Shown in pieces: positions 1,864 to 54,289 of a stretch of 62,641 nucleotides of DNA (position 1 is the first letter of the stretch; every line of letters starts with the position of its first letter). The DNA comes from Roseburia sp. Its GTDB lineage: Bacteria > Bacillota > Clostridia > Lachnospirales > Lachnospiraceae. Location: NCBI GenBank assembly GCA_023667765.1, contig JAMOZS010000008.1, forward strand, positions 1 to 62,641, read 5' to 3'. The notes below the pieces were generated by a model, which was given only the letters and a program-made list of their open reading frames with translations, was not told the origin of the DNA and did not search any database. Position numbers and translations under genes: made by a program.

Positions 1864-3084
1864 TCAAAAGCTTCCCCATGCAAGAGAAGTTACATTTTCA
1901 CGATAGTTTTTAAATATACTTCTTTCATATGTCTTAAAAGTGTAATTACGCAAAAAGTCTTTTTCTTCCATATCCCATTCAAAAAACTGCCTACTGCTAT
2001 TTTTCACAAATTCAACAAACAGATTTCCACATATCTCCTCCGCACTCATATTTGCAGCTGTACTAACTTTTAATTCGTTAATTAAATCGTCAACTTTGGA
2101 TTGCTCTGCTATAGTAAGATGTGGCGACTTATTAAATATAATTACCCACCAAAATTCCCTGTATGTATATATACTGTCTTTTTTTATAATCGCGTTAATG
2201 CGTTCTAACAAAATCTCTCCTATTTCATCTCGTATCTCTTTGTAATACTTGGTACTGTACTGCGAATATAGTAAATAGGATGCCCATAAAATTGGATCAT
2301 CTTTTTCACGCGACTTACAAACAATCATTTGCTCTTGCCTATATGGTATTTCTATTTTTGCATGAGCACAAAATAACACTAAATTTATTATGTCATTAAG
2401 ATTCGCCTTGTCAAAAATAAAAGCATATTTATTAACTAATTTCTGTAATTGTTGAGATGAAATGAATATGTAATATTCATCTCTAATATAACTTACAATG
2501 GACAAAAATCGCTGTGTATTATTATGGTTAGGAAAGAATGAATACGCATAAAATATTAAATCCATAAAGTTTGCTACTGTCTGTTCTGTAACTTGTTCCG
2601 AAAAAATTTTGACATTTTCTTTATTTCTCGATACCTTATTGAGAATTGTTCCCAAAAAATACGCCACTATCGTTCTATCCTTTGATGGATATTTGCAAAT
2701 AAGCTCATTCAATTGATTCATTATGCTTCTTTTTGAATAATACAAAGCTCTGCTTTTAAGAATGTGTGGTACTATCTCTTTCTCCAAGTCATTTTGCTTT
2801 TCTTTTTGTAACCATAATTCTTGCTCTTCCTTTGTACGGAACAAACAAGCACTTGTTCTATTTGCAAAAATCGAAGTTTCATTAATCCATTCATCTAATA
2901 CAAACGGAACTGTATTTTTATATAATTTTGATTCATTTAATCTTAATAAATATTTCGCAGATATCTCTGAATATGTTTTCACTATTTCATTTGCAAGTTC
3001 CTCCGACTCAGCAAAAATAAAGATATCGTCAACAAATCTATAAACATTATAATTCTCCCCGACAGCTTTCCCTCCATTTAACAA
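1864..3084 (-). pseudogene. N-terminally truncated reverse transcriptase (UG/Abi/DRT-like)
   Basis: Residues 15-24 read YRFVDDIFIF, the catalytic YxDD motif C of reverse transcriptases, here FVDD. It lies only 17 residues from the start of the frame, so fingers, motifs A and B and most of the palm are missing. After the motif come thumb-like residues and about 300 residues rich in helix, as in the long C-terminal regions of phage-defence reverse transcriptases (Abi and DRT groups). The annotated first codon is a TTG without a ribosome site, and an in-frame TAA lies two codons upstream, 13 nt from the atpC stop. The gene was therefore probably cut when this segment joined the atp operon. Exact DRT class not determined. 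Confidence 0.7.
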
Positions 3085-3096
3085 GACTTACAGCTA

Positions 3097-3515
3097 CTAT
3101 TCCAACTCGTCATAATACTGGCGCCTTACCCGCAGCCTGTTGATGGCCCGGGCCAGATTTGCCTGGGCAAAATGGTATTCCTCCACACTTTTTTTCTGCA
3201 AAATCGCTTCTCTGGCCGCATCCGCATCACGCTTTGCCCGGTTGATTTCAATCTCCTCAGGCCGTTCAGCCGTATCCACAAGCACCAACGCCTCGTTGCT
3301 CTCTACCTTTAAAAAACCTTCCGAGATAGCTGCATGGAGCATGGGCTGACCGGGCAGCTTATAGTGCAGGGTTCCCGGCAGGATGGCGCTAATCATATTG
3401 CTGTGATGAGCCCAGATACCGTATTCCCCCTCCACGGTAGGCACAATCAGCGACTCGCAGGGCCCTACATAAAAGGGATGATCCGCCGCCAAAATCGAAA
3501 TCTGAAATGTATCCA

Positions 3516-3516
<1 letters not shown>
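3097..3516 (-). CDS. atpC: F-type ATP synthase subunit epsilon
   Basis: 139 residues, the usual length for epsilon: an N-terminal beta-sandwich (residues 1-85, with GPCESLIVPTVEGEYGI and ISEGFLKVESNEALVLVD) followed by a two-helix hairpin (RAKRDADAAREAI ... ARAINRLRVRRQYYDEL). Epsilon is part of the central stalk, links gamma to the c-ring and inhibits ATP hydrolysis. The ATG overlaps the atpD stop by one base (TAATG), which suggests coupled translation. It is the last gene of the atp operon; directly after its stop the sequence changes to AT-rich accessory DNA. Confidence 0.95.
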
Positions 3517-5853
<2,337 letters not shown>

Positions 5854-41560: not shown

Positions 41561-43558
41561 TCAGTAAATGGTTCTTCCTTTTTCATCTTCGATACCGCTC
41601 TTGCGATAGAAATAAGAATTTACCTGATCTCGCCATTCTCTTGCATTGTCCAGCTGGCGCTGCAGACGTTCCCGCACTCTTTCGTAGGCCTCCCGGACAA
41701 TTTTGCCCTGTAGACTCTCCCAGTCCCTCATCATAACCTCCACGTCCTCAACGCCCTCAAAATGGCTGTCATAAATATGCTGAATCAGCGTCTTGCCGCT
41801 TTTTAACCGATAGGTATACGGTACATGATGAAAGAACAGCAAAAGCTCCTCGGGACAGGTTTCCACCTGATTATACAGGGAGGCATTCGGCTCATAATAC
41901 TGCTTTACAAAGCCGGTTCCCCTCTCGCTTCTGTCCACGCCAATCCCCAGATGGTCGGCCCTGTGATAGGTGCCCCATCGGGAATACTCATAACCGTCCA
42001 CACTGCATCCATAATGGGTATTGGGCGTCACCATCCAGCCTATTCCAAGAGGACTGGTATATTTCTCATAGACGGCCCGGGAGGGAAGCAGAATCCTCTT
42101 TATGGTCTCCACCACCTCAGAATCAGTGGAAAAGCTCATCCGAATCCACTCCTCCAAAATCTCCCCGGCGTCAAGACTGCTCTGAAAGGCCAGCCGCCCG
42201 AAGCCGTATAAATTGGCGGCGGCTAAATCATTCCCCGTCCAATTGGCGTCATTTCCTGTATTGGAAACCGCCGCCATACCTGCATTCCGATTGCCCATGG
42301 TTCTTCCACTGACCACATCCGCCACGGAATCCTCTTTGGCCCCGCAATAGGTCTTGAAATCCAATATCTCCTTAAACATGGGAACGAGATAACAGAGGTC
42401 AATTTGATGCCCGGTATATTCCTGAGCCACCTGTACCTCCAGCATCTGATTGGTTCTTTTCAAACCGCCCAGCAGCGGGGAAACCGGTTCCCTGATTTGA
42501 AAATCCATGGGCCCGTTCTTTATCTGCAAAATCACATTATCATGATAGGAACCGTCCAAATCGATAAAATTATCATATCCGGCCCTGGCCCGATCCGTCT
42601 TATAATCCCGCCAGTCCTGGGTACAGTTATATACGAAGCATCTCCAGATAATCATGCCGCCATAGGGCTTTACAATATCCGCCAGCATATTGGCGCCATC
42701 CGCCTGGGTACGCCCATAGGTAAAGGGTCCCGGCCGCCCCTCAGAATCCGCCTTTACCAGAAAGCCTCCCAGATTGGGAATCCGGGCAAAGACCTCCTTC
42801 ATTTTATCCTTCCACCATGCAATCACCGCCGGCTCCAGAGGGTCCGCGCTGTCCGGCCCGCCCAGCTCAATGGGAGCGGCAAAATTCAGGCTCAGGAAGA
42901 ACCGGATGCCATAGCCTGCAAACAACTCCGCCATCTGAGCAAGCTTTTCAAAATGCCTGTCCGTAATCAGATAGGTGGCCTCCTGCTTTACATTTACATT
43001 ATTGATAACCACGCCGTTTATGCCGATACTGGCCATAAGTCTGGCATAATCCCCGGTTCGTTCCCCTACAACGACCTGATTATCCTGAAAGAAAAAGGAA
43101 TCGCCGGAGTAACCGCGCTCAATATCACCGTCCATATTGTCCCAATGATTATACATACGCAGGGGATTGTCGGGATTCATCCGTATATCGATTCCCGCCA
43201 GGTTCTGCTCCATAGCCACCAGACGCAGGACATGAAACACGCCATACAAAAGACCTCTTTCCTCCCTGGCAGAAATGGTCAGTATGCCCTCCTGCTCCCG
43301 AATATGATACCCTTCCTCGCCGATTTCCGAAGCCCCAACCCGCTTCAACACAAGCCCCTGCCGGACATGCTCCTCCTGCATGACATCCAGCTCCAGCATA
43401 CTCCGAACGCCTCTTCTTAGCTCCTCCAGACTGTTTTTCACAATGGGATTCTCCCCGGAAAAGCCCTCAAGGGAAAACCTCCTTAAATATACACTGTTCC
43501 CCTGTTCTCTCTTTATCTGATATGCCAGCCAGAGCTGGGACCATTCTTTATCGCACAT
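41561..43558 (-). CDS. GH67 alpha-glucuronidase
   Basis: About 665 residues, full length. The centre is a barrel with family blocks WDNMDGDIERGYSG, GFLVKADSEGRPGPFTYGRTQADGANMLAD, MIIWRCFVYNC and FIDLDGSYHDNVILQIKNGPMDFQIREPVSPL; the end has the W-rich HYGCSVDGYEYSRWGTYHRAD. These enzymes remove (4-O-methyl)glucuronic acid from xylo-oligosaccharides. No signal peptide, so substrate must be imported. Start ATG at 43558 with GGAGGAAACGGG; a longer frame lacks support. GH67 next to GH2 and GH3 indicates glucuronoxylan side-chain use. Promoter 43674-43702 lies upstream. Confidence 0.93.
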   Translation of the reverse strand: MCDKEWSQLWLAYQIKREQGNSVYLRRFSLEGFSGENPIVKNSLEELRRGVRSMLELDVMQEEHVRQGLVLKRVGASEIGEEGYHIREQEGILTISAREERGLLYGVFHVLRLVAMEQNLAGIDIRMNPDNPLRMYNHWDNMDGDIERGYSGDSFFFQDNQVVVGERTGDYARLMASIGINGVVINNVNVKQEATYLITDRHFEKLAQMAELFAGYGIRFFLSLNFAAPIELGGPDSADPLEPAVIAWWKDKMKEVFARIPNLGGFLVKADSEGRPGPFTYGRTQADGANMLADIVKPYGGMIIWRCFVYNCTQDWRDYKTDRARAGYDNFIDLDGSYHDNVILQIKNGPMDFQIREPVSPLLGGLKRTNQMLEVQVAQEYTGHQIDLCYLVPMFKEILDFKTYCGAKEDSVADVVSGRTMGNRNAGMAAVSNTGNDANWTGNDLAAANLYGFGRLAFQSSLDAGEILEEWIRMSFSTDSEVVETIKRILLPSRAVYEKYTSPLGIGWMVTPNTHYGCSVDGYEYSRWGTYHRADHLGIGVDRSERGTGFVKQYYEPNASLYNQVETCPEELLLFFHHVPYTYRLKSGKTLIQHIYDSHFEGVEDVEVMMRDWESLQGKIVREAYERVRERLQRQLDNAREWRDQVNSYFYRKSGIEDEKGRTIY

Positions 43559-43673
43559 CCCGTTTCCTCCATCCTCCCTCATCCTCCGAAGCCTCTCCCT
43601 GTATTCTCCGCCCCAAAAGCGTCCCTACGATTTATCATACGTCCTACATCGGGAAGCTCCCGTTTTGAATCAA

Positions 43674-43702
43674 AGCATATCACTATCAAAATCATAATTC
43701 AA
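43674..43702 (-). promoter_or_regulatory. promoter of the GH67-GH2 pair
   Basis: On the minus strand TTGAAT (43697-43702) and TATGCT (43674-43679) are 17 bp apart. The leader to the ATG at 43558 is about 110 nt and contains a short dyad (GGGAGCTTCCC, near 43650). The rest of 43559-43875 is AT-rich and holds the GH3 terminator. Confidence 0.6.
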
Positions 43703-43792
43703 TGCGTTCCCATTGATTGAGCAAAAAATAACCATTTTTCAAAAAAATAATACATCCTCTACAGCAATTTTTGAATTTTTCGGACACCAAAA

Positions 43793-43835
43793 CACCCCCT
43801 CTCATCAGACCTTACGGTTCTGATAAAAGGGGGTG
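43793..43835 (-). terminator. terminator after the GH3 gene
   Basis: CACCCCCT...ATCAGA pairs with TCTGAT...AGGGGGTG around an 8-9 nt loop. On the minus strand it is followed by TTTTGG. It sits 40 nt beyond the GH3 stop and separates GH3 from the GH67-GH2 unit. Confidence 0.75.
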
Positions 43836-43875
43836 CTTAAAGCATTTTCTTAAATTATCATTTACAGGGCTCTGC

Positions 43876-46020
43876 TCATACGCTCAGGGTAAACTCCGTT
43901 ACCTTTCTTCCGGTCAGCTTTTCGCTTCTGGCATCCGGTCCCTGTCCGCCGATATACACCTTTACCTCTCCGGGGGGTATCTGCAAAACGCCCTCTTCGT
44001 CAAAGAGTCCGAAGGCCTCCTTTGGCAGATGAACGGAAACCTGTGTACTCTCTCCTGCCGAAAGGTACAGCTTCCGAATCCCCTTCAACTGAGCATTGGG
44101 AGTTCCCTCCCTGCAGACCTTCACATAGACCTGAACCGTCTCGCCTCCGGCCATCCTGCCGGTATTTTTGACGGTAGCCGTTACATCTATGCCCGCTTCT
44201 CCTACCTTTGTATCGCTGACAGCTGCATTGCTGTATTCAAAATCCGTATAGGAAAGTCCGTATCCAAAGGGATACAGAGGCTCGGTCTGCATATAGCGGT
44301 AGGTTCTGCCCTTCATGCTGTAATCCGTGAAGGCAGGAAGCTCGTCCGTGGAACGGTAGAAAGTCACCGGTAATTTACCCTCGGGATTCTTCTCTCCGAA
44401 GAGAATATCCGCAATGGCTCTTCCGCCCTGAGCGCCGGGATACCACCCCTGAATAATGGCCGGAATATGCTCGTCAGCCCAGTTTACCGCCAGAGCGCTG
44501 CCCGAGAGCAGTATCAGAATAACCGGCTTGCCGGAGGCATAAATCGTCTCCAGTATCTGCTGCTGCAGACCGGGCAAATCCAGATTGGGCTTATCTCCGC
44601 TGGCAAACTCATTACCCTCGTCACCCTCCTCGCCTTCCAGCCCGGAGTCCAGACCCATACAGGCAATAATCACATCGCTTTCCGCACAAACTCCTTTTAC
44701 CTCAGAGATACGGTCATTCTCAATGCCCAGATTCTGGGTCTTAGGATGGCAGAGATGGCAGCCCTCGGAGGTCATCACCCGCACCGTATCTCCTAAATAT
44801 TCCTGCAGACCCTCCAATACCGTCCAGTATCTGGAAGCCGTACCCTCATAGTTGCCTACCAGGGCTCTTCTGTTGTTGGCATTGGGTCCGATAACGCCAA
44901 TCGTCTTGAGTCCGCTCTTATCCAGAGGAAGCAAATTCCCTTCATTCTTCAACAAAACCACACATTTTTCGGCAGCCTTGCGGTTTAACTCCTGCATAGG
45001 CTTGCTGTCCACTACGGAATAGGGAATCTTATCGAAGGGATTGCTGCCCTTCTCATCAAATACGCCCAGCTTCATACGCGTGGTAAACAGATTTACCAGA
45101 GCCTCGTCCAGACGGCTCTCCTGCACCATGCCCTCCTCTACGGCCTGCTTTAAATAATGGAACAGATTGCCGCAGTTTAAGTCGCAGCCGTTATTCATAG
45201 CCATGGATACCGACTCCACCGGCGTGTCCGTCACATGATGGCCCTCATGGAAGTCCTTGATAGCCCAGCAGTCGCTGACTACATGGCCCTTGAAGCCCCA
45301 TTCCTTTCTCAATATATCCTGCAGCAGAACCTTACTGCCACAGCAGGGGGCACCGTTGGTACGATTGTAAGCGCCCATAACCGCTTCCACACCGGCCTCC
45401 TGAACGCAGGCCTTGAAAGCGGGCAGATAGGTTTCGTACATATCCTGCTTGTCCGCAACCGCATCAAAGCTGTGACGGATATCCTCGGGACCGCTATGTA
45501 CGGCAAAATGCTTTGCACAGGCAGCTGCCTTTAAGTAAGTCTCATCATGTCCCTGAATACCCTCTACGAATCGCACGCCAAGACGGGAGGTCAGATAGGG
45601 ATCCTCTCCGAAGGTCTCATGCCCCCGTCCCCATCTGGGGTCTCTGAAAATATTCACATTAGGAGACCAAAAGGTAAGTCCCTTGTAAATGTCCGTGTCA
45701 TCATCAGCCTGCTGCATATTAAATTTCGCACGGCCCTCTGTGGAAATGGCGTCCGCCACCTCCTCAATAAAATCCTCGTCAAAGGTCGCAGCCAGACCGA
45801 TTGACTGGGGGAATACCGTAGCCACGCCGGCTCTTGCCACGCCATGCAGCGCCTCGTTCCACCAGTTATAGGCCTTCACGCCCAGTCTCTCAATGGCGGG
45901 CGCCCAGCTTAAGGTCTGCTCCACCTTCTCCTCAAGGGTCATCTGCGCCACCAGCTTTTCCGCCCTGGCCCTGTACTCCTTTACCTTTTGTTCATTCTTT
46001 GCAATCTCCATCTTTTTCAT
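43876..46020 (-). CDS. GH3 beta-glucosidase/beta-xylosidase
   Basis: 714 residues. GH3 N-terminal barrel with WSPNVNIFRDPRWGRGHETFGEDPYLTSRLG, KHFAVHSGPEDIRHSFDA and the nucleophile Asp in GHVVSDCWAIKDF; the second alpha/beta domain and a fibronectin III-like C-terminal domain (PFGYGLSYTDFEYSN) follow. The W/N pattern at the start (YNWWNEALHGVAR) is typical of the xylosidase/arabinosidase branch. No signal peptide. Together with GH67 this is consistent with degradation of imported xylo-oligosaccharides. RBS GGAGGGCA. Has its own promoter and terminator. Confidence 0.93.
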   Translation of the reverse strand: MKKMEIAKNEQKVKEYRARAEKLVAQMTLEEKVEQTLSWAPAIERLGVKAYNWWNEALHGVARAGVATVFPQSIGLAATFDEDFIEEVADAISTEGRAKFNMQQADDDTDIYKGLTFWSPNVNIFRDPRWGRGHETFGEDPYLTSRLGVRFVEGIQGHDETYLKAAACAKHFAVHSGPEDIRHSFDAVADKQDMYETYLPAFKACVQEAGVEAVMGAYNRTNGAPCCGSKVLLQDILRKEWGFKGHVVSDCWAIKDFHEGHHVTDTPVESVSMAMNNGCDLNCGNLFHYLKQAVEEGMVQESRLDEALVNLFTTRMKLGVFDEKGSNPFDKIPYSVVDSKPMQELNRKAAEKCVVLLKNEGNLLPLDKSGLKTIGVIGPNANNRRALVGNYEGTASRYWTVLEGLQEYLGDTVRVMTSEGCHLCHPKTQNLGIENDRISEVKGVCAESDVIIACMGLDSGLEGEEGDEGNEFASGDKPNLDLPGLQQQILETIYASGKPVILILLSGSALAVNWADEHIPAIIQGWYPGAQGGRAIADILFGEKNPEGKLPVTFYRSTDELPAFTDYSMKGRTYRYMQTEPLYPFGYGLSYTDFEYSNAAVSDTKVGEAGIDVTATVKNTGRMAGGETVQVYVKVCREGTPNAQLKGIRKLYLSAGESTQVSVHLPKEAFGLFDEEGVLQIPPGEVKVYIGGQGPDARSEKLTGRKVTEFTLSV

Positions 46021-46140: not shown

Positions 46141-48765
46141 TCAATCCGTGAGGTGATAAGTCTCCCGAAGCTCTCGGGACGCCCGCTCCAGCGCCTCAAA
46201 CAAATCCATAGCCGACATGCGGACGGCGCCCTCTCCCCAGACAATCATCTGCTCCAGCGCATCCGAGGTCGCCACCGTCACCCGGTAATGACCGCCGATT
46301 TTATGCACGGCTTTCTCAATATATTGATCTGCCGTCTCCGCTTCCCTTGTGTACACCACATAAATATTATGATACCGAAGCACCGAGCCGGGGTTACCCT
46401 TTACCTTATAGGCGTCAAACACCAGTATCAGAATACTGCCCAGATATCCCTGATAGTTACACATCATATCCATCAGCCGGTCTCTTGCGCTGTCCATATT
46501 CATCTGCGCAAGCTCCTTAAGCACCGGCCATGCAAAAATAATGTTATAGCCGTCCACCAAAAGATAGCTCTCCTGGGAAGAAGAATCCTGCCCACGATAC
46601 GGGGGAGCCCCCTCCTCCCGCCTGCGATAGCTGTCCGTATGCGTCTTATGATACCGTCCAAAACGCTTCCCCTTCTCCTCCCTTTTCCCGTAAAGCTGCC
46701 GAAAAATCGCGTCAATCTCCTCCTGTGAGATATAGTCTGATTCCACTCTCTGATGAGAAGGCGCCTTCTGCTGCCCCCGGGCTGTTTCCTCCTCCGGATT
46801 CTCCTTTAAAAGCGGTTCCAGCCGAAAACCGCTGTCCACATGGGCATACTCCGGCACCTGATTCCAGGGTACCACAAAGCCGGCCCCATGCGCGCAGAAT
46901 ACCGAGCCCGTGGGATTCTCCAAATCGGCCTCCGGGTCATAGGCTGCCGCCGCCACCACCTCCTCCGTATTATGGCAGGGCTCATATCCCGCCATGGACA
47001 AGGACAGACGCCCAAAGCCTCTGGTATAGGCGTTGACCTCCCGCTGGTAGCCCTGCATGGCCGCTGCCGGCGCCCTTCCTGTGAGAATGCTGTTTTCCCC
47101 CAGCGTCACGGGGCTCTCAAAGCTCCCCTGCATCCTTTTAATATCGGACATGGCCCGCCCCAGCTGGCTCCCGGGCACCTCCAGGGTGAAGGCAAACACC
47201 GGCTCCAGCAAAAGGCATCTGCTGCTGCGCAGGCCCTGCCTGAGCGCCCGATAAGTGGCCTGCCTGAAATCTCCACCCTCCGTATGCTTCGCATGGGCCC
47301 GTCCTCCGATAAGACTGATGCGCATATCCGTAATCTCCGCCCCGGTAAGCACTCCCGCATGAGCCCGCTCCTCCAGATGGGAGAGCACCAGCCTCTGCCA
47401 GTTTTTATCCAACATATCCTCGCGGCACAGGCTGGCGAACTGCAGGCCGCTGCCCGGCTCTCCCGGCTCCAGCAACAGCTGTACCTCCGCATAATGCCGC
47501 AGAGGTTCAAAATGTCCGATGCCTATCGCAGCCTCCCCGATAGTCTCCTTATAGACAATACTGCCTTTTCCAAAGGTTACCTCCAGTCCAAAGCGCTCCG
47601 TAATCAGCCTTTTTAATACCTCTATCTGCACCTCTCCCATGACCTGCGCATGAATCTGGGCCGTTCTTTCCAGCCACACCAGCCGAAGCAGCGGCTCCTC
47701 TTCCTCCAATTCCTTCAGCTGCCTGTATACTACCACCGGGTCGCCTCCCTCGGGAAGTATGATCTGATACGTCAGCACCGGCTCCAGCACGGGAAGCGCA
47801 TTTTCCCTCTCAAAACCCAGCCCCTGTCCCACTCTTGTGCGGGTAAGACCGGTGACGGCGCATATGTCCCCCGGGACCGCCTGCTCCGCCACCTGATATT
47901 GACTGCCGTTATAGATTCTAATCTGGTCGGCCTTTTCCTGCCATTTATCCCTCCCGGATAAGGCGCTTCCAGGATTGCCCAGAAGCTGTCTTGCCCTGAG
48001 CACGCCCCCCGTCACCTTCACATGCGTCAGCCTGTTGCCCTGAGAATCCCTGCTGATTTTAAATACCCGGGCGCCAAATTCCGCCGGGTATTCCGTCTCC
48101 AGACTGTATGTCTCCATTCCGTCCAAAAGCTCTGTGATTCCCTGAAGCTTAAGGGCCGAACCAAAATAACAGGGAAACACTCTGCGCTCCGCCACCGCAC
48201 AGGCAATACTTTTTGCGTCCAGCTTCCCTGTCTGTAGATACTCCTCCAGCAGCTCCTCGCTGCATAAGGCCAGATTGTCCCAGAGCTCCTCTCCCCCAAA
48301 TTCCACACAGGCCGAATCCAGACGGCTCTGAAGCTCCTCAAGAAGCGTCTCCCGGACTGTTCCCTCCCGGTCCATCTTATTCACAAAAAGGAAGGTGGGA
48401 ATCCCGTATTTTTTCAACAGCCGCCACAAGGTACGGGTATGTCCCTGCACACCGTCCGCACCGTCAATCACCAGCACCGCATAATCCAGAACCTGCAGCG
48501 TCCGCTCCATTTCCGCCGAAAAATCCACATGTCCCGGCGTGTCCAGAAGCGTCGCCTGCAAATCCTTCCAGGTAAACAGAGCCTGCTTGGAAAAAATCGT
48601 AATGCCCCGCTCTCGCTCCAGTGCAAAATGATCCAGAAAAGCGTCCTGATGGTCCACTCTTCCCAGACTGCGCAACTGGCCGCAGGTATATAAGATGGCT
48701 TCGGCCAGGGTCGTCTTTCCCGCATCCACATGAGCCAGAATACCCAGTGTCAATTTATTACCCAT
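46141..48765 (-). CDS. TetM/EF-G-like translational GTPase fused to a YacP/Rae1-type NYN nuclease domain
   Basis: 874 residues. Residues 1 to about 640 are a ribosomal-protection-type GTPase: G1 AHVDAGKTT, G2 RERGITI, G3 DTPGHVDF, G4 NKMD, then the EF-G-like domains II to V (YKETIGEAAIGIGHFEPLRHYAEV; GSQLGRAMSDIKRMQGSF). After a charged linker (about 650-733) residues 734-874 match the YacP/Rae1 NYN fold: LLVDGYNIIFAWPVLKEL, ILVFDAYKVKG, VVYTREAETADQYIEKAV, VATSDALEQMIVWGEGAVRMSA. In Bacillus Rae1 cuts mRNA in the ribosomal A site. So GTPase and A-site nuclease may act as one protein. It follows thiC by 33 nt without a terminator. Tetracycline resistance is not implied. Confidence 0.9.
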   Translation of the reverse strand: MGNKLTLGILAHVDAGKTTLAEAILYTCGQLRSLGRVDHQDAFLDHFALERERGITIFSKQALFTWKDLQATLLDTPGHVDFSAEMERTLQVLDYAVLVIDGADGVQGHTRTLWRLLKKYGIPTFLFVNKMDREGTVRETLLEELQSRLDSACVEFGGEELWDNLALCSEELLEEYLQTGKLDAKSIACAVAERRVFPCYFGSALKLQGITELLDGMETYSLETEYPAEFGARVFKISRDSQGNRLTHVKVTGGVLRARQLLGNPGSALSGRDKWQEKADQIRIYNGSQYQVAEQAVPGDICAVTGLTRTRVGQGLGFERENALPVLEPVLTYQIILPEGGDPVVVYRQLKELEEEEPLLRLVWLERTAQIHAQVMGEVQIEVLKRLITERFGLEVTFGKGSIVYKETIGEAAIGIGHFEPLRHYAEVQLLLEPGEPGSGLQFASLCREDMLDKNWQRLVLSHLEERAHAGVLTGAEITDMRISLIGGRAHAKHTEGGDFRQATYRALRQGLRSSRCLLLEPVFAFTLEVPGSQLGRAMSDIKRMQGSFESPVTLGENSILTGRAPAAAMQGYQREVNAYTRGFGRLSLSMAGYEPCHNTEEVVAAAAYDPEADLENPTGSVFCAHGAGFVVPWNQVPEYAHVDSGFRLEPLLKENPEEETARGQQKAPSHQRVESDYISQEEIDAIFRQLYGKREEKGKRFGRYHKTHTDSYRRREEGAPPYRGQDSSSQESYLLVDGYNIIFAWPVLKELAQMNMDSARDRLMDMMCNYQGYLGSILILVFDAYKVKGNPGSVLRYHNIYVVYTREAETADQYIEKAVHKIGGHYRVTVATSDALEQMIVWGEGAVRMSAMDLFEALERASRELRETYHLTD

Positions 48766-48798
48766 CGCATCCTCCCGTAAGGCAACAGCTACGCCGCA

Positions 48799-50109
48799 TC
48801 ATAAGATATCTATGTATTCTCCCGCCAGCGCCTTATTCATGCTGCGAACGGCGCAGAACTTCCCGCACATACTACAGGTATCGCTATGGTCGTCCTCGGG
48901 CTTTCTGCTGTCCCGTATCTCTCTGGCTGTCTCAGGGTCCAGCGCACAGGCAAACTGCTCCTCCCAATCCAGATTACGTCTGGCGTCCGCCATCCGGTCA
49001 TCTATACTTCTCGCTCCGGGAATACCCTTTGCAATATCCGCCGCATGGGCCGCAATCTTCGAGGCAATAATTCCCTGCTTCACATCCTCCACATTGGGAA
49101 GGGCCAGATGCTCCGCAGGCGTTACATAACACAGAAAGGCCGCTCCACTCATAGCCGCCACCGCTCCGCCGATAGCCGCCGTAATATGGTCGTAGCCCGG
49201 CGCAATATCTGTCACAAGGGGGCCCAGCACATAGAAGGGCGCTCCCATACAGATACTCTGCTGTATCTGCATATTCGCCGCCACCTGATTCAGGGGCACA
49301 TGTCCCGGCCCCTCCACCATAACCTGTACATTGTGGGCCCAGGCACGCTTCGTCAGCTCTCCCAGTCTCACCAGTTCCTCTATCTGACAAACGTCCGTGG
49401 CGTCGGCCAGACAGCCGGGACGGCAGGCGTCCCCCAGGGATATGGTCACATCATGCTCCTCACAGATATCCAGTATCTCATCATAATATTCATAAAAGGG
49501 ATTCTCCTCCCCGGTCATGCTCATCCAGGCAAACACCAGACTTCCGCCCCGACTCACAATATTCATCTTCCTCTTATGGCTGCGTATCTGTTCAATCGTC
49601 TTGCGGGTGATTCCACAGTGCAGCGTCACGAAATCCACACCATCCCGGGCATGAAGCCGAACCACATCAATAAAATCCTTTGCCGTAAGACTGGCCAGGT
49701 CTCTCTGATAATGAATGACGCTGTCATAGACCGGCACCGTGCCAATCATCGCCGGACACTCCCGGGTCAGCTTCTGTCGGAAGGGCTGTGTATTTCCATG
49801 ACTGGACAAATCCATAATCGCCTCCGCCCCAAGCTCCACAGCGCTCATCACCTTCTGCATCTCAATATCATAATCCTTACAGTCTCTGGAAACGCCCAAA
49901 TTGACATTAATCTTGGTGCGCAGCATACTGCCTACGCCCTCCGGATTCAGACAGGTATGATGTTTATTGGCGCAAAGCGCCACCTTTCCCTCTGCTATCA
50001 GCTTCATCAGCTGTTCCACCGGCATTGCTTCCTTTTTGGCCACAATCTCCATCTGAGGCGTTACAACGCCTTTTCTCGCAGCATCCATCTGTGTCGTATA
50101 ATTGCTCAT
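48799..50109 (-). CDS. thiC: phosphomethylpyrimidine synthase
   Basis: About 436 residues, the clostridial short form. Radical SAM enzyme that makes HMP-P from aminoimidazole ribotide. The C-terminal cluster motif CSMCGKFC (CxxCxxxxC) lies near the end, and [22 protein letters not shown] and [17 protein letters not shown] are diagnostic. Start ATG at 50109 with GGGAGGAAAG. Last thi gene; the GTPase-nuclease gene follows. Confidence 0.95.
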
Positions 50110-50153
50110 CTTTCCTCCCGTTCCGCGCGTTTTGCCGCACACTCCTTTATTGC

Positions 50154-50939
50154 TTATCTATTCATCCTGTAGACATGGTTGAGCGGCCCGCTGCCCTTCC
50201 CTAAATCGAGCCCGTCCGCCAATGCCCCTGTCAGATACTCCTTTGCCCTTTCCACCGCCGTTTCCAACTCATAGCCCAGAGCCAGATTACTGGCAATGGC
50301 GCTGGATAAGGTACAGCCGGTACCATGCGTATTGGGATTCGAGATTCGTTCTCCTTTAAACCAGACAGCCTTACCGTCCCTGTACAACAAATCATCGGCC
50401 TCCTTCCGGCTATGCCCTCCCTTACATAAGACAGCACAATGCCAGCGCTTCCAGATTTCCGCCGCCGCCGCTTCCATATCCCCGGCATTTTGTATCTTCC
50501 TGTCTGCCAGCGCCTCCGCTTCCGGAATATTGGGCGTAATCAACTCCGCCAGAGGAAAAAGCTCCTCCTTAAGTACCTCCACAGCCCCCTTCTGCATCAG
50601 CAGAGAGCCGCTGGTGGAGACCATCACCGGGTCCAGCACAATATGTCTGGCTTTGTACGCTTTCAGCTTAACCGCCGTCACCCTCATGAGCTCGCTGTCC
50701 GAAAGCATTCCCAGCTTAACCGCATCCGGAAAGATATCCGTAAAAATACAATCCAGCTGCTTACTCAGAAACTCAGGCGGCACCTCCATGATGCCGTAAA
50801 CTCCCGTAGTATTTTGGGCTGTCAGCGCCGCTATGGCGCTCATTCCATATACCCCGTGAGCCGCCATGGTTTTCAAATCCGCCTGAATGCCTGCCCCGCC
50901 GCTTGAATCGCTTCCTGCAATGGTAAGTACCGCCTTCAT
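50154..50939 (-). CDS. thiD: hydroxymethylpyrimidine/phosphomethylpyrimidine kinase
   Basis: About 261 residues. Ribokinase-like: [23 protein letters not shown] at the start, [14 protein letters not shown] and the catalytic [16 protein letters not shown] with the GTGC motif. Phosphorylates HMP and HMP-P. Met at 50939 follows GGAGGAACTT; a longer frame overlaps thiE. Lies between thiE and thiC. Confidence 0.95.
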
Positions 50940-50976
50940 AAGTTCCTCCGTTTCTGCACCGGCCTGTCTTGCCTCA

Positions 50977-51639
50977 TCAGCCAAAAAGTCCTCTGACCAT
51001 AGATAATAATTCCCGACATTCCGCCTCTATATTCTCTGCGGCAAAGATTGCCGATACCAGTGCGACGCCGCTGATACCGCTTCCCCCAAGCCCGCTGATA
51101 TGACTCTTTTTGATTCCCCCTATAGCTACCACCGGTATTGTTACCGCCCGGCAGATTTCCCGCAGGGTATTTACGGAGAGAGGGGAGGCGTCCGGCTTCG
51201 TGCCTGTGGAAAACATCGCCCCCACTCCCAGATAATCCGCACCGTCCCTCTCGGCCGTTAAGGCCTCCCGAATCGTATGGGCCGACACCCCGATAATTTT
51301 ATCCGGCCCCAAAAGCTCACGCACTCTTTTGAGCGGCATATCGCTCTGTCCCACATGTACGCCGTCCGCTTTCGAGCGCAGAGCAATCTCCACATTATCA
51401 TTGACGATAAAGGGCACCCGATATTTCCGGCACAGCTCTCCCATCTGAACGGCCTGCGCCAGAAAATCCTCAAAGCCCCTCTCCTTTTCCCGAAGCTGAA
51501 CACAGGTGACGCCGCCCTTAAGCGCTTCCTCCACCTGCGCATACAGCGTTTTTTCCTTTGTCCAGGCTCTGTCCGTTACTGCATACAGCTGCATTGCCTG
51601 CTTCACCAAATTCTTTTTACTGTCCATACCAATCACCAC
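50977..51639 (-). CDS. thiE: thiamine-phosphate synthase
   Basis: About 216-220 residues. TIM barrel: LYAVTDRAW, CVQLREKE, FIVNDNVEIALRSKADGVHVGQSD and VVAIGGIKK. Joins HMP-PP and thiazole phosphate to thiamine phosphate. Start is GTG at 51639 or ATG at 51627 (MDSKKN); neither ribosome site is ideal. One gene downstream of thiM. Confidence 0.94.
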   Translation of the reverse strand: MVIGMDSKKNLVKQAMQLYAVTDRAWTKEKTLYAQVEEALKGGVTCVQLREKERGFEDFLAQAVQMGELCRKYRVPFIVNDNVEIALRSKADGVHVGQSDMPLKRVRELLGPDKIIGVSAHTIREALTAERDGADYLGVGAMFSTGTKPDASPLSVNTLREICRAVTIPVVAIGGIKKSHISGLGGSGISGVALVSAIFAAENIEAECRELLSMVRGLFG

Positions 51640-51678: not shown

Positions 51679-52503
51679 TTACAATACCTGCTCTATCACG
51701 GCATACCGCCTGATATCCTCCCCCCGTAAGCGGTACATGGCGTCTATGATATAATTTCTATAGGATGCATTGCCCTCCGCCTCTCCCAGACGGGCATAGG
51801 CTCGTTCCCCGCAAATTCCCATTGCGCATACGGCCGCTGCCGCCGCCTCCACCGGATTCTCTTTGTTGGCGGCAAGAAAGGCCGCTGTCAGTGCGGAGAG
51901 CTGACAGCCGGTTCCCGTCACTTTGCTCATCATAGGATGTCCATTAAAGATGCCATAGGTCTTTATCCCATCCGACACCAGGTCGATTTCCCCGGTCACC
52001 ACAGCCACACAGCCCGCCTCCGCCGCAAAAGCTTTTACAAACGCTGCGAACTTTTGAAGGCTTGCTCCGGTTACCTTATCTTTCCCGGCCGCATCCACCC
52101 CCCTTGTGTCTGCGGCTCCCAAAGCCAATGTCCTTATCTCGGACAGATTTCCCCTTATCAGAGTAGGCCTGACCTCCCGCATCAGCTGAATCGCCGTCCG
52201 GGTTCGCAAAGAGGACGCTCCTGCCCCCACCGGGTCCAGCGTCACCGGATGTCCCAGCGCCGCCGCCCTCTTTCCGGCCGCCAGCATGGCCGGAACCGTT
52301 CTGACGTTTAAGGTGCCGATATTGAGATGCAATGCGGCGCACAGAGCCGTTATCTCCTCCGCCTCCTCCCTGTCATCCGCCATAATTGGGGAAGCGCCAC
52401 AGGCCAGCAGCATATTGGCACAATCATTTACCGTCACATAATTTGTTATATTATGCACCAGAGGATGCAATTCTCTCACACGTTCCAGTACTTTCCCAAA
52501 CAT
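51679..52503 (-). CDS. thiM: hydroxyethylthiazole kinase
   Basis: 274 residues. Family motifs HPLVHNITNYVTVNDCANMLLACGASPIMADDREEAEEI, VTLDPVGAGASSLR, LIRGNLSEI and MSKVTGTGCQLSALTAAF. Phosphorylates salvaged thiazole alcohol. GGAGG about 10 nt before the ATG. The salvage partner ThiW is encoded directly upstream. Confidence 0.95.
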   Translation of the reverse strand: MFGKVLERVRELHPLVHNITNYVTVNDCANMLLACGASPIMADDREEAEEITALCAALHLNIGTLNVRTVPAMLAAGKRAAALGHPVTLDPVGAGASSLRTRTAIQLMREVRPTLIRGNLSEIRTLALGAADTRGVDAAGKDKVTGASLQKFAAFVKAFAAEAGCVAVVTGEIDLVSDGIKTYGIFNGHPMMSKVTGTGCQLSALTAAFLAANKENPVEAAAAAVCAMGICGERAYARLGEAEGNASYRNYIIDAMYRLRGEDIRRYAVIEQVL

Positions 52504-52550: not shown

Positions 52551-53057
52551 TCAGATTCCCCTCGCAGTTAATATTCCCGTCCTTTTAAGCGCCCCCAACA
52601 GTATGCCGGACAGAACCGCTCCCCCTGCCGTGGAAATTAAAAACGGCACGATATAGGCATAGAAGGCTATATCGCCTGCGCTCTTTCCCATCAGCAAAAC
52701 AGCCACCGGATATGCGCATAAGCCTCCCAAAATCGCAGTTCCGAACACCTCCGCAAGGAGCGTCGGCCAGATTTTCTTTGTCCTCCCATATACAATGCCG
52801 CACAGGAGCGCGCCAAACATACTGCCCGGAAAGGCCATCAAACTCCCAAGCCCCAGAAGATTCCTGATTAGACTGGCTCCAAAAGCAACTCCCACTCCAT
52901 ACCAGGGGCCTAAAACGACTGCGCATAAGATATTTACCATATGCTGTACCGGCGCACATTTGCTGCCGAATACGGGCACCGAAAACAGACTTCCTACTAC
53001 TGCTATCCCACACAATACACCGGCAACTACCATCTTTTTGATTCTTTCACTCTTCAT
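52551..53057 (-). CDS. thiW: energy-coupling factor transporter S component ThiW
   Basis: About 168 residues, five to six membrane helices. The order PVFGSKCAPVQHMVNILCAVVLGPWYGVGVAFGASLIRNLLGLGSLMAFPGSMFGALLCGIVYG is the ThiW signature of a substrate-binding S component. It delivers hydroxyethylthiazole with ECF ATPases encoded elsewhere. Met at 53057 is favoured (AAAAGGAG eight nt upstream). First gene of the thi operon, preceded by the TPP riboswitch. Confidence 0.9.
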   Translation of the reverse strand: MKSERIKKMVVAGVLCGIAVVGSLFSVPVFGSKCAPVQHMVNILCAVVLGPWYGVGVAFGASLIRNLLGLGSLMAFPGSMFGALLCGIVYGRTKKIWPTLLAEVFGTAILGGLCAYPVAVLLMGKSAGDIAFYAYIVPFLISTAGGAVLSGILLGALKRTGILTARGI

Positions 53058-53095
53058 ACTCATAACTCCTTTTCCAATGTAATAGATTATCCTGC

Positions 53096-53353: not shown

Positions 53354-53382
53354 AAAAAAGAGATACCTGTTGCGGTATCTCC
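53354..53382 (-). terminator. terminator of the TPP riboswitch
   Basis: GAGATACC and GGTATCTC form an 8-bp stem around GCAACA, followed on the minus strand by TTTTTTG. It lies about 10 nt after the riboswitch core and is positioned to stop transcription when TPP is bound. Confidence 0.88.
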
Positions 53383-53390
53383 GACAAAAT

Positions 53391-53480
53391 CACTTGTGAC
53401 TTCCTACGACGGCATTATCCGTATCAGGTAAAAGGGTCGAAGTTGATTACTTCCTCTCAGCCTGCCGTTACAAGCTCCCC
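53391..53480 (-). promoter_or_regulatory. TPP riboswitch
   Basis: The minus strand reads GGGGAGCTTG, GGCTGAGAGGAAG, CAACTTCGACCC, ACCTGAT, GGATAATGCC and CGTAGGAAGT in order, which is the complete TPP (THI-box) core including the pyrimidine-sensing CUGAGA and pyrophosphate-sensing parts. A terminator follows at once, so TPP binding should reduce transcription of thiW-M-E-D-C and possibly of the GTPase-nuclease gene. Confidence 0.95.
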
Positions 53481-53548
53481 TGCTCTAATTTATGAAATAG
53501 TTATAGCAAAACGCCGAAGGTTTGTCAAGCCTTGACCATGCGATTGAA

Positions 53549-53645: not shown

Positions 53646-53861
53646 ATGTCTATTACTGCAACCGAATTAAAAGTTAATCTTGGCAAATATCTTACGTTAG
53701 CGGAAAACGAGGATATTTATATCACTCGCAATGGAAAGGTCGTTGCAAAATTGTCTAATCCCTATCAAGACAGAGTGGATATTGCTAAATCATTGTTTGG
53801 TATTCTTCCCACAGAAATGACATTAGAAGAGGCACAAGAAGAAAGGCTGAATACTATATGA
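53646..53861 (+). CDS. Phd/YefM-type antitoxin
   Basis: 71 residues. The N-terminal part (MSITATELKVNLGKYLTLAENEDIYITRNGKVVAKL) is the Phd/YefM DNA-binding fold; the C-terminal tail would neutralise the toxin. RBS AGAGGGATGATAAT before the ATG. Its stop overlaps the toxin start by 4 nt (ATGA). Binds its own promoter in related systems. Confidence 0.88.
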   Translation: MSITATELKVNLGKYLTLAENEDIYITRNGKVVAKLSNPYQDRVDIAKSLFGILPTEMTLEEAQEERLNTI

Positions 53862-54289
53862 GAGTTTTAATTGATACCTGCGTTATCATTGATGCATTGC
53901 AAGCGCGCGCTCCGTTTGCGGAAGCAGCACAAAAGATTTTTTTATACGCAGCGAACAAGCAATTTGAGGGATATCTTACAGCTAAAGCAGCCACGGATAT
54001 TTATTATCTGACACATCGACTAACACATAGTGATGCCGAAACCCGTAAAATTTTAAGTAAACTGTATACATTATTCAATTTGTTAGATACAGCCTCTTTG
54101 GATTGTCGCAAAGCAATTTCTTCGGAAATAGGAGATTATGAGGATGCTGTTATGGTAGAAACTGCTATCCGTTCTGAGATGGACTGTATTGTAACTCGAA
54201 ATATGAGGGATTATGCAAAATCCTCCGTTACAGTATATGAACCGTCTGTATTTTTGGAATTATTAGAAGCAGAAAGGGAATCGGATTAA
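53858..54289 (+). CDS. PIN-domain toxin (VapC-like)
   Basis: 143 residues. PIN-fold acidic residues are present: D6 in LIDTCVIIDAL, E in the central helix (GDYEDAVMVETA) and D in DCIVTRNMRDY near the end. Likely a ribonuclease that is held inactive by the antitoxin in the gene before it. AT-rich compared with the thi operon, in keeping with horizontal transfer. Confidence 0.88.
   Translation: MRVLIDTCVIIDALQARAPFAEAAQKIFLYAANKQFEGYLTAKAATDIYYLTHRLTHSDAETRKILSKLYTLFNLLDTASLDCRKAISSEIGDYEDAVMVETAIRSEMDCIVTRNMRDYAKSSVTVYEPSVFLELLEAERESD

Follow-up and report, generated by a model that had tools for sequence, protein, structure and literature searches.

A TetM-like GTPase fused to a YacP/Rae1-type nuclease in Roseburia and the probable displacement of stand-alone Rae1 in its relatives

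The window analysed here is a stretch of 62,641 nucleotides from Roseburia sp. (GenBank assembly GCA_023667765.1, contig JAMOZS010000008.1). Reading of its open reading frames identified a single ATG-started frame of 874 amino acids on the minus strand, situated at the end of a run of thiamine genes, which encodes a translational GTPase joined to a nuclease of the YacP/Rae1 type. The features of the locus are as follows.

46141..48765, minus strand: whole gene, GTPase-NYN fusion of 874 aa (frame, Pfam, alignment, AlphaFold2)
48771..48776, minus strand: Shine-Dalgarno-like GGGAGG ahead of the ATG at 48765 (read from the sequence)
48106..48750, minus strand: G domain, aa 6-220 (Pfam GTP_EFTU, E 8.7e-52)
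46969..48105, minus strand: EF-G-like domains II-V, aa 221-599 (Pfam)
47260..47304, minus strand: domain IV loop GRAHAKHTEGGDFRQ, aa 488-502, at the position of TetM's YYSPVST (alignment and conservation)
46831..46968, minus strand: extension past domain V, aa 600-645, with conserved C624/W634/H642 (alignment)
46567..46830, minus strand: charged linker, aa 646-733 (alignment, AlphaFold2)
46693..46728, minus strand: short conserved linker motif EEIDAIFRQLYG, about aa 680-691 (pattern search)
46156..46566, minus strand: YacP/Rae1-type NYN nuclease, aa 734-870 (Pfam NYN_YacP)
48799..50142, minus strand: thiC, upstream neighbour of the fusion
50154..50984, minus strand: thiD
50977..51639, minus strand: thiE
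51679..52503, minus strand: thiM
52551..53063, minus strand: thiW
53359..53382, minus strand: terminator-like hairpin past the riboswitch (consensus scan, in which such hits occur near chance frequency)
53384..53491, minus strand: TPP riboswitch (Rfam RF00059, 65 bits vs 54.3)

The riboswitch, the hairpin, thiW-thiM-thiE-thiD-thiC and then the fusion form one same-strand run, with 33 nt between the end of the thiC frame (48799) and the ATG of the fusion. Control of the fusion by TPP, as originally suggested from its distance to thiC, is therefore plausible in this genome, but the linkage is not a trait of the family. Among 100 fused loci a thiC-like cluster was found upstream in the sister locus L056 and, at a distance of some kilobases, in L108, and a thiD-like gene abuts the fusion in L057; no thi gene lies beside the fusion in G022 (L295), a genome of the same genus. 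Over these 100 loci no neighbour cluster recurred more than five times among the counts listed. Divergent from the TPP-controlled run, at 53646-54289 on the plus strand, are a Phd/YefM-type antitoxin gene and then a PIN_3 toxin-like gene. Downstream of the fusion, on the minus strand at 41561-46020, are two enzyme genes, one of family GH3 at 43876-46020 and one of family GH67 at 41561-43582.

The original prediction of a GTPase and a nuclease in one frame is borne out by Pfam, which runs from GTP_EFTU to NYN_YacP within the 874 residues, and by 102 proteins of the same architecture. The C-terminal match to NYN_YacP covers aa 735-870 with an E-value of 2.7e-45 and a score of 154.8 bits (cut-off 24.6), and the LLVDGYN, VFDA, ETAD and TSD motifs, which carry the acidic residues, align with those of solved YacP (5mq8). 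Domain II falls marginally below its Pfam cut-off (25.2 vs 27). By sequence, the nearest solved structures to the GTPase part are TetO and TetM (6.5e-73 and 2.7e-72) and the nearest to the NYN part is B. subtilis YacP (5mq8/5mq9, best 2.5e-27); the region that separates domain V from the NYN domain had no credible match among solved structures, and PADLOC gave no match. A whole-protein AlphaFold2 prediction (40 homologues; mean pLDDT 81.8, pTM 0.65) contains two confident bodies, an EF-G-like one and the NYN domain, joined by a low-confidence linker in which residues 651-729 lie mostly below pLDDT 50 and a weak, low-confidence helix spans 681-692.

The 102 fused proteins comprise the window protein, the best 80 of 581 confirmed stretches and 21 others. 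Identity to the best 80 of the 581 loci is 55-67%, and the nearest named relatives belong to the Lachnospiraceae, class Clostridia. All of the GTPase positions D14, G16, K17, T18, D75, G78, H79, N129, K130 and D132 are identical in 102/102, as are D738, Y740, N741, D784, T811, D813, E817, S834 and D835 of the nuclease, among which we take D738, N741, D784, D813, E817 and D835 to be the catalytic residues of the YacP NYN domain. Residue 810 is E in 94/102 and Q in 8/102. Both active sites are thus intact, as had been read from the single sequence, and since 102 homologues share the architecture together with intact motifs a chance match is ruled out, in agreement with the Pfam and solved-structure matches. 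The linker is charged and variable, 68-152 aa long (median 90.5), and yet contains a motif of the approximate form E-[LI]-E-x-I-F-x-R-T-Y-G, which was matched in 93/102 proteins, with several of the nine misses showing something similar by eye. The motif was absent at the examined ends of unfused GTPases and stand-alone YacPs. The extension past domain V, with a conserved C597 just ahead of it, carries C624, W634 and H642 in fused and unfused members and is absent from the Tet and EF-G rows compared; these Cys, His and Trp residues make metal binding possible.

The best NCBIfam model for the fusion was tet_protect (NF012153), but its 405.1 bits miss the cut-off of 775, and the cut-offs of NF033148 (277.6 bits, 1100 required) and of the EF-G model TIGR00484 (282.3 bits, 659.4 required) were likewise missed. 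In a quick tree of 73 proteins, with SH-aLRT as the only support measure and tetO and otrA absent from its rows, the fused and unfused GTPases form one clade (SH-aLRT 100) whose sister clade (SH-aLRT 95) consists of tetM, tetW, tetS, tetQ and ten tet-like rows. EF-G, which has the five-domain plan in common with the fusion, is separate from both. This tree carries warnings for the long branches of L277 and L289 and for odd composition in many rows, and the trees omit L238 of G099, whose frame is broken, and L276 of G308, which has two frames. TetM, TetW, TetS and TetQ resemble the fusion in domain order and G motifs but share only about 29-30% identity with it and have a different domain IV loop, and the fusion possesses the extension, the linker and the NYN domain in addition. 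Where the tetM/W/S/Q rows have YYSPVST, presumably the domain IV loop residues that act on the drug in Tet proteins, the fusion has HxKHTEGGDFR; several of the tet-like rows also do without YYSPVST. Dislodging of the drug by domain IV loops of Tet proteins is described in part of PMC4342817. By the tests made the GTPase of the fusion is TetM-like and non-Tet, in keeping with the initial judgement that this is not obviously a resistance gene.

In the genome of the window the fusion is the only PF05991 member and lies at a locus other than rlmB. Its wider distribution was surveyed in the family (Lachnospiraceae) and the class (Clostridia), with genomes G000 and G022 common to both surveys and all counts being raw genome counts in which kinship is ignored. 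The family survey covered 120 genomes of 119 genera, tallied by hand, and found PF05991 in 108: 95 fused, 9 stand-alone, 1 split and 3 ambiguous, with 12 having none. One of those counted as fused (G039) has a second, contig-edge PF05991 match above cut-off, and co-occurrence of a fusion and a stand-alone YacP is possible there. None of the 12 Lachnospiraceae that lack YacP reaches E 1e-60 in a search for the GTPase, and the existence of 12/120 genomes with neither part indicates that the function is dispensable. In the split case (L247 of G042, 2514-5199, minus strand) the break lies close to the linker and leaves two frames that share 23 nt, through either an assembly error or a real split. 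Of 243 class genomes 161 had PF05991, 150 of them among the matches listed and 11 outside the listing. Taking frames of at least 800 aa as fused and of at most 220 aa as stand-alone, the 150 listed genomes divide into 78 fused, 65 stand-alone and 7 ambiguous, and 0/143 of the clear ones have both. Second PF05991 hits in G239, G293 and G326 score about 21 bits, under the cut-off, and were suspected YacP remnants; for G239 this idea was dropped, as its 160-aa frame resembles an Lrp/AsnC regulator by eye. A search of 299 genomes of the phylum with the GTPase alignment gave 21 matches at E 1e-150 or better, 6 of them already in the class survey, of which 18 lie in frames of 857-909 aa and 3 in frames of 651-657 aa.

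The same GTPase also occurs without a nuclease. Unfused sisters (L219-L238, and Ligilactobacillus salivarius pMP118 WP_164920261.1) belong to the same clade and have a related loop and extension but lack both linker and nuclease. They were found in 14 class genomes, namely 9/65 with a stand-alone YacP, 5 without a YacP match and 0/78 with a fusion, a partial match in G265 (447 bits) not being counted. Among Lachnospiraceae with a stand-alone YacP 6 of 10 tested carry an unfused GTPase, the copy in G099 having an in-frame stop, and 2 of the 4 that do not are incomplete genomes (67 and 87%). As 5 of the 14 class genomes have the sister GTPase without any NYN domain, coupling is not obligatory, and the GTPase thus has its own role, often, though not always, exercised beside Rae1. 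The L. salivarius protein has probably lost its nuclease, as its branch arises from within the fused clade. On pMP118 the gene (L299, 4393-6911) has as neighbours a plasmid-borne rpsN (S14) copy and a short gene annotated as ‘putative metal homeostasis’.

Around stand-alone yacP the usual gene order, with gene families checked on examples, is cysS, RNase III-domain gene, rlmB, yacP, sigma factor. Of 19 stand-alone loci, 15 have rlmB directly beside yacP on the same strand and 11 a sigma-factor gene. For comparison, 40 rlmB loci of fusion genomes were obtained from 41 genomes chosen by hand (20/20 and 20/21 matched). In 31/40 (15/20 and 16/20) rlmB is followed, among recognised genes, directly by the sigma-factor gene with no YacP between them, 5 of these 31 coming from phylum-survey genomes that were called fused by frame length alone and searched for a stand-alone YacP at the rlmB locus only. 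Small ORFs without a family lie between the two genes in 6 of the 31, and the other 9/40 have a differing context and are uninformative. In the genome of the window, one of the 31, the gap from rlmB to the sigma-factor gene is 18 nt and yacP is absent. When stand-alone YacPs were searched by tblastn over the 40 loci, traces appeared in G141 (clear) and G216 (faint, 31 residues at 48%) only, and none was found in the 591-bp gap of G309. The gap in G141, a fused genome, contains no ORF longer than 41 aa but a decayed yacP, which across 477 bp is 68% identical in nucleotides to that of G170; G170 belongs to the same genus, has a stand-alone yacP and lacks the fusion. This decay, together with the empty rlmB loci, is the strongest evidence for takeover of Rae1 function by the fusion. 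Since no clear genome has both forms and yacP is missing, once in a decayed state, from its old locus, it is most likely, judged from gene content, that the fusion displaced Rae1.

The origin of the fusion was approached with a tree of 61 NYN domains, of which 28 rows are stand-alone with one gene present twice (L254 and L140). All fused NYN domains but one nest among stand-alone YacPs of their own order, the Lachnospirales, and family. The exception, L277 (G316), is a long branch outside the fused clade and possibly represents a second independent fusion. Fused proteins form a single group in the GTPase tree (SH-aLRT 99), which also includes one split gene and an unfused protein from a lactobacillus. 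The most natural reading of these patterns is one main fusion within a Lachnospirales lineage, followed by spread and by loss of the nuclease in at least one member.

Parts of PMC12320835 and PMC6613710 describe Rae1 of B. subtilis as a nuclease that attacks mRNA within the A site of the ribosome. In the latter, again as seen in part, loss of Rae1 suppresses a B. subtilis efp mutant, as does loss of yacO, a co-transcribed rlmB homologue, and a Rae1 R166P substitution is an efp suppressor of the loss-of-function class. Going by residue number, R166 should lie in the C-terminal tail. B. subtilis Rae1/YacP (5mq8, 5mq9) has its domain family and catalytic residues in common with the fusion, for which the same role is inferred, but it is a free small protein with a C-terminal tail, and stand-alone yacP in relatives usually adjoins rlmB, whereas the protein described here is fused, encoded at another site and without the tail, its Pfam match ending at profile position 138 of 166. 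Among the listed class genomes the match reaches at least position 160 of 166 in 65/65 stand-alone proteins as against 30/78 fused ones, and a looser tail pattern is present in 22 of the 28 stand-alone rows (one gene twice) as against 10/102 fused proteins. The tail could have been lost through drift. Its loss in most fusions also fits a presumed delivery of the nuclease to ribosomes under guidance of the GTPase.

The Rae1-like role on mRNA that had been proposed for the fused protein is made much more likely by its exclusivity with stand-alone YacP, and we consider it rather probable that the fusion serves its host as Rae1, borne by a translational GTPase. In such a scheme the GTPase would bind ribosomes with an empty or blocked A site, domain IV would reach the decoding centre, and the GTPase would depart upon GTP hydrolysis. 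The nuclease, on a tether of about 90 residues, might then cut the mRNA after entering either the freed A site or the A site of a stalled ribosome nearby. Domain IV and the nuclease should not fit into a single A site together and would be in competition for it, which means that these steps would have to be sequential or take place on different ribosomes. The GTPase and linker may in this way replace ribosome targeting that free Rae1 may draw from its C-terminal tail. A more ambitious proposal, which we put forward tentatively and which falls a little short of being probable, is that of a GTP-driven Rae1 loader derived from a non-Tet GTPase subfamily, where the fusion displaced the free nuclease across many families of Clostridia and cutting of mRNA on stalled ribosomes is licensed by GTP hydrolysis and not by passive entry.

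It may instead be that the two halves are uncoupled, with the NYN domain alone doing the job of Rae1, the GTPase doing a separate job on the ribosome and the fusion serving co-expression only. This would account for the unfused sister GTPases without NYN in 5/14 genomes and for the unfused GTPase with an unlinked NYN in 9/65 stand-alone class genomes and 6/10 Lachnospiraceae tested, and it sits comfortably with a linker that is long and mostly disordered. We nevertheless regard it as unlikely, as a fused clade that persists across many genera without damage to either active site, the loss of the Rae1 tail in 48/78 fusions and a conserved motif within an otherwise variable linker all speak against it.

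A role in protection against tetracycline or another antibiotic, with the RNase as an added mechanism as suggested by Atkinson in 2015, is more doubtful still and in our view has only a slim chance of being correct. tet_protect is the best NCBIfam model (405 bits), TetO and TetM are the nearest solved structures, part of PMC4342817 files such proteins under Tet and a public record calls one fused protein TetM-family; set against this are a score of 405 where 775 bits are required, a position outside the tetM/W/S/Q clade, a domain IV loop without YYSPVST and presence in 95/120 family genomes, which is unlike an acquired resistance gene. Least probable of all, and hardly to be expected, is a function in ribosome assembly or in rRNA or tRNA maturation, where the GTPase would check the subunit and the NYN domain trim rRNA. 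An earlier proposal that the NYN domain acts in rRNA and tRNA maturation is cited in the portion of PMC4342817 available to us, and stand-alone yacP lies near rlmB and an RNase III-domain gene, but B. subtilis Rae1 is described, in the parts of PMC12320835 and PMC6613710 already mentioned, as acting on A-site mRNA.

Preference for a GTPase-borne Rae1 bears on how such proteins have been classified. Atkinson (2015) reported, in the part of PMC4342817 available, ten Clostridiales species whose Tet proteins carry a YacP-like NYN domain, and proposed that they serve in drug resistance; architecture and broad group are the same as here, the comparison being with the description and not with the sequence list. 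In contrast to that filing under Tet, the GTPase lies outside the tetM/W/S/Q clade, is present in 95/120 Lachnospiraceae and excludes stand-alone YacP. A literature search found no experimental study of the fused protein, with Atkinson (2015) the sole report; nor did it find the replacement of Rae1, the non-Tet assignment or the family frequency, although an earlier mention in Rae1 papers is possible. A reported fusion would thereby become a specific replacement of Rae1. If this is true, a large gut family has a GTPase for its Rae1, database labels of ‘tetracycline resistance’ would include translation quality-control factors and, because free, unlinked and fused states coexist in related genomes, nature offers a way to study how nucleases of the A site get to ribosomes.

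It had also been anticipated that the nuclease part of such proteins could be overlooked. This holds only in part, as the NYN domain was reported in 2015 (PMC4342817, seen in part), but the public record of an Agathobacter rectalis plasmid (L298, 5983-8784, plus strand) annotates its fused protein only as TetM-family tetracycline resistance.
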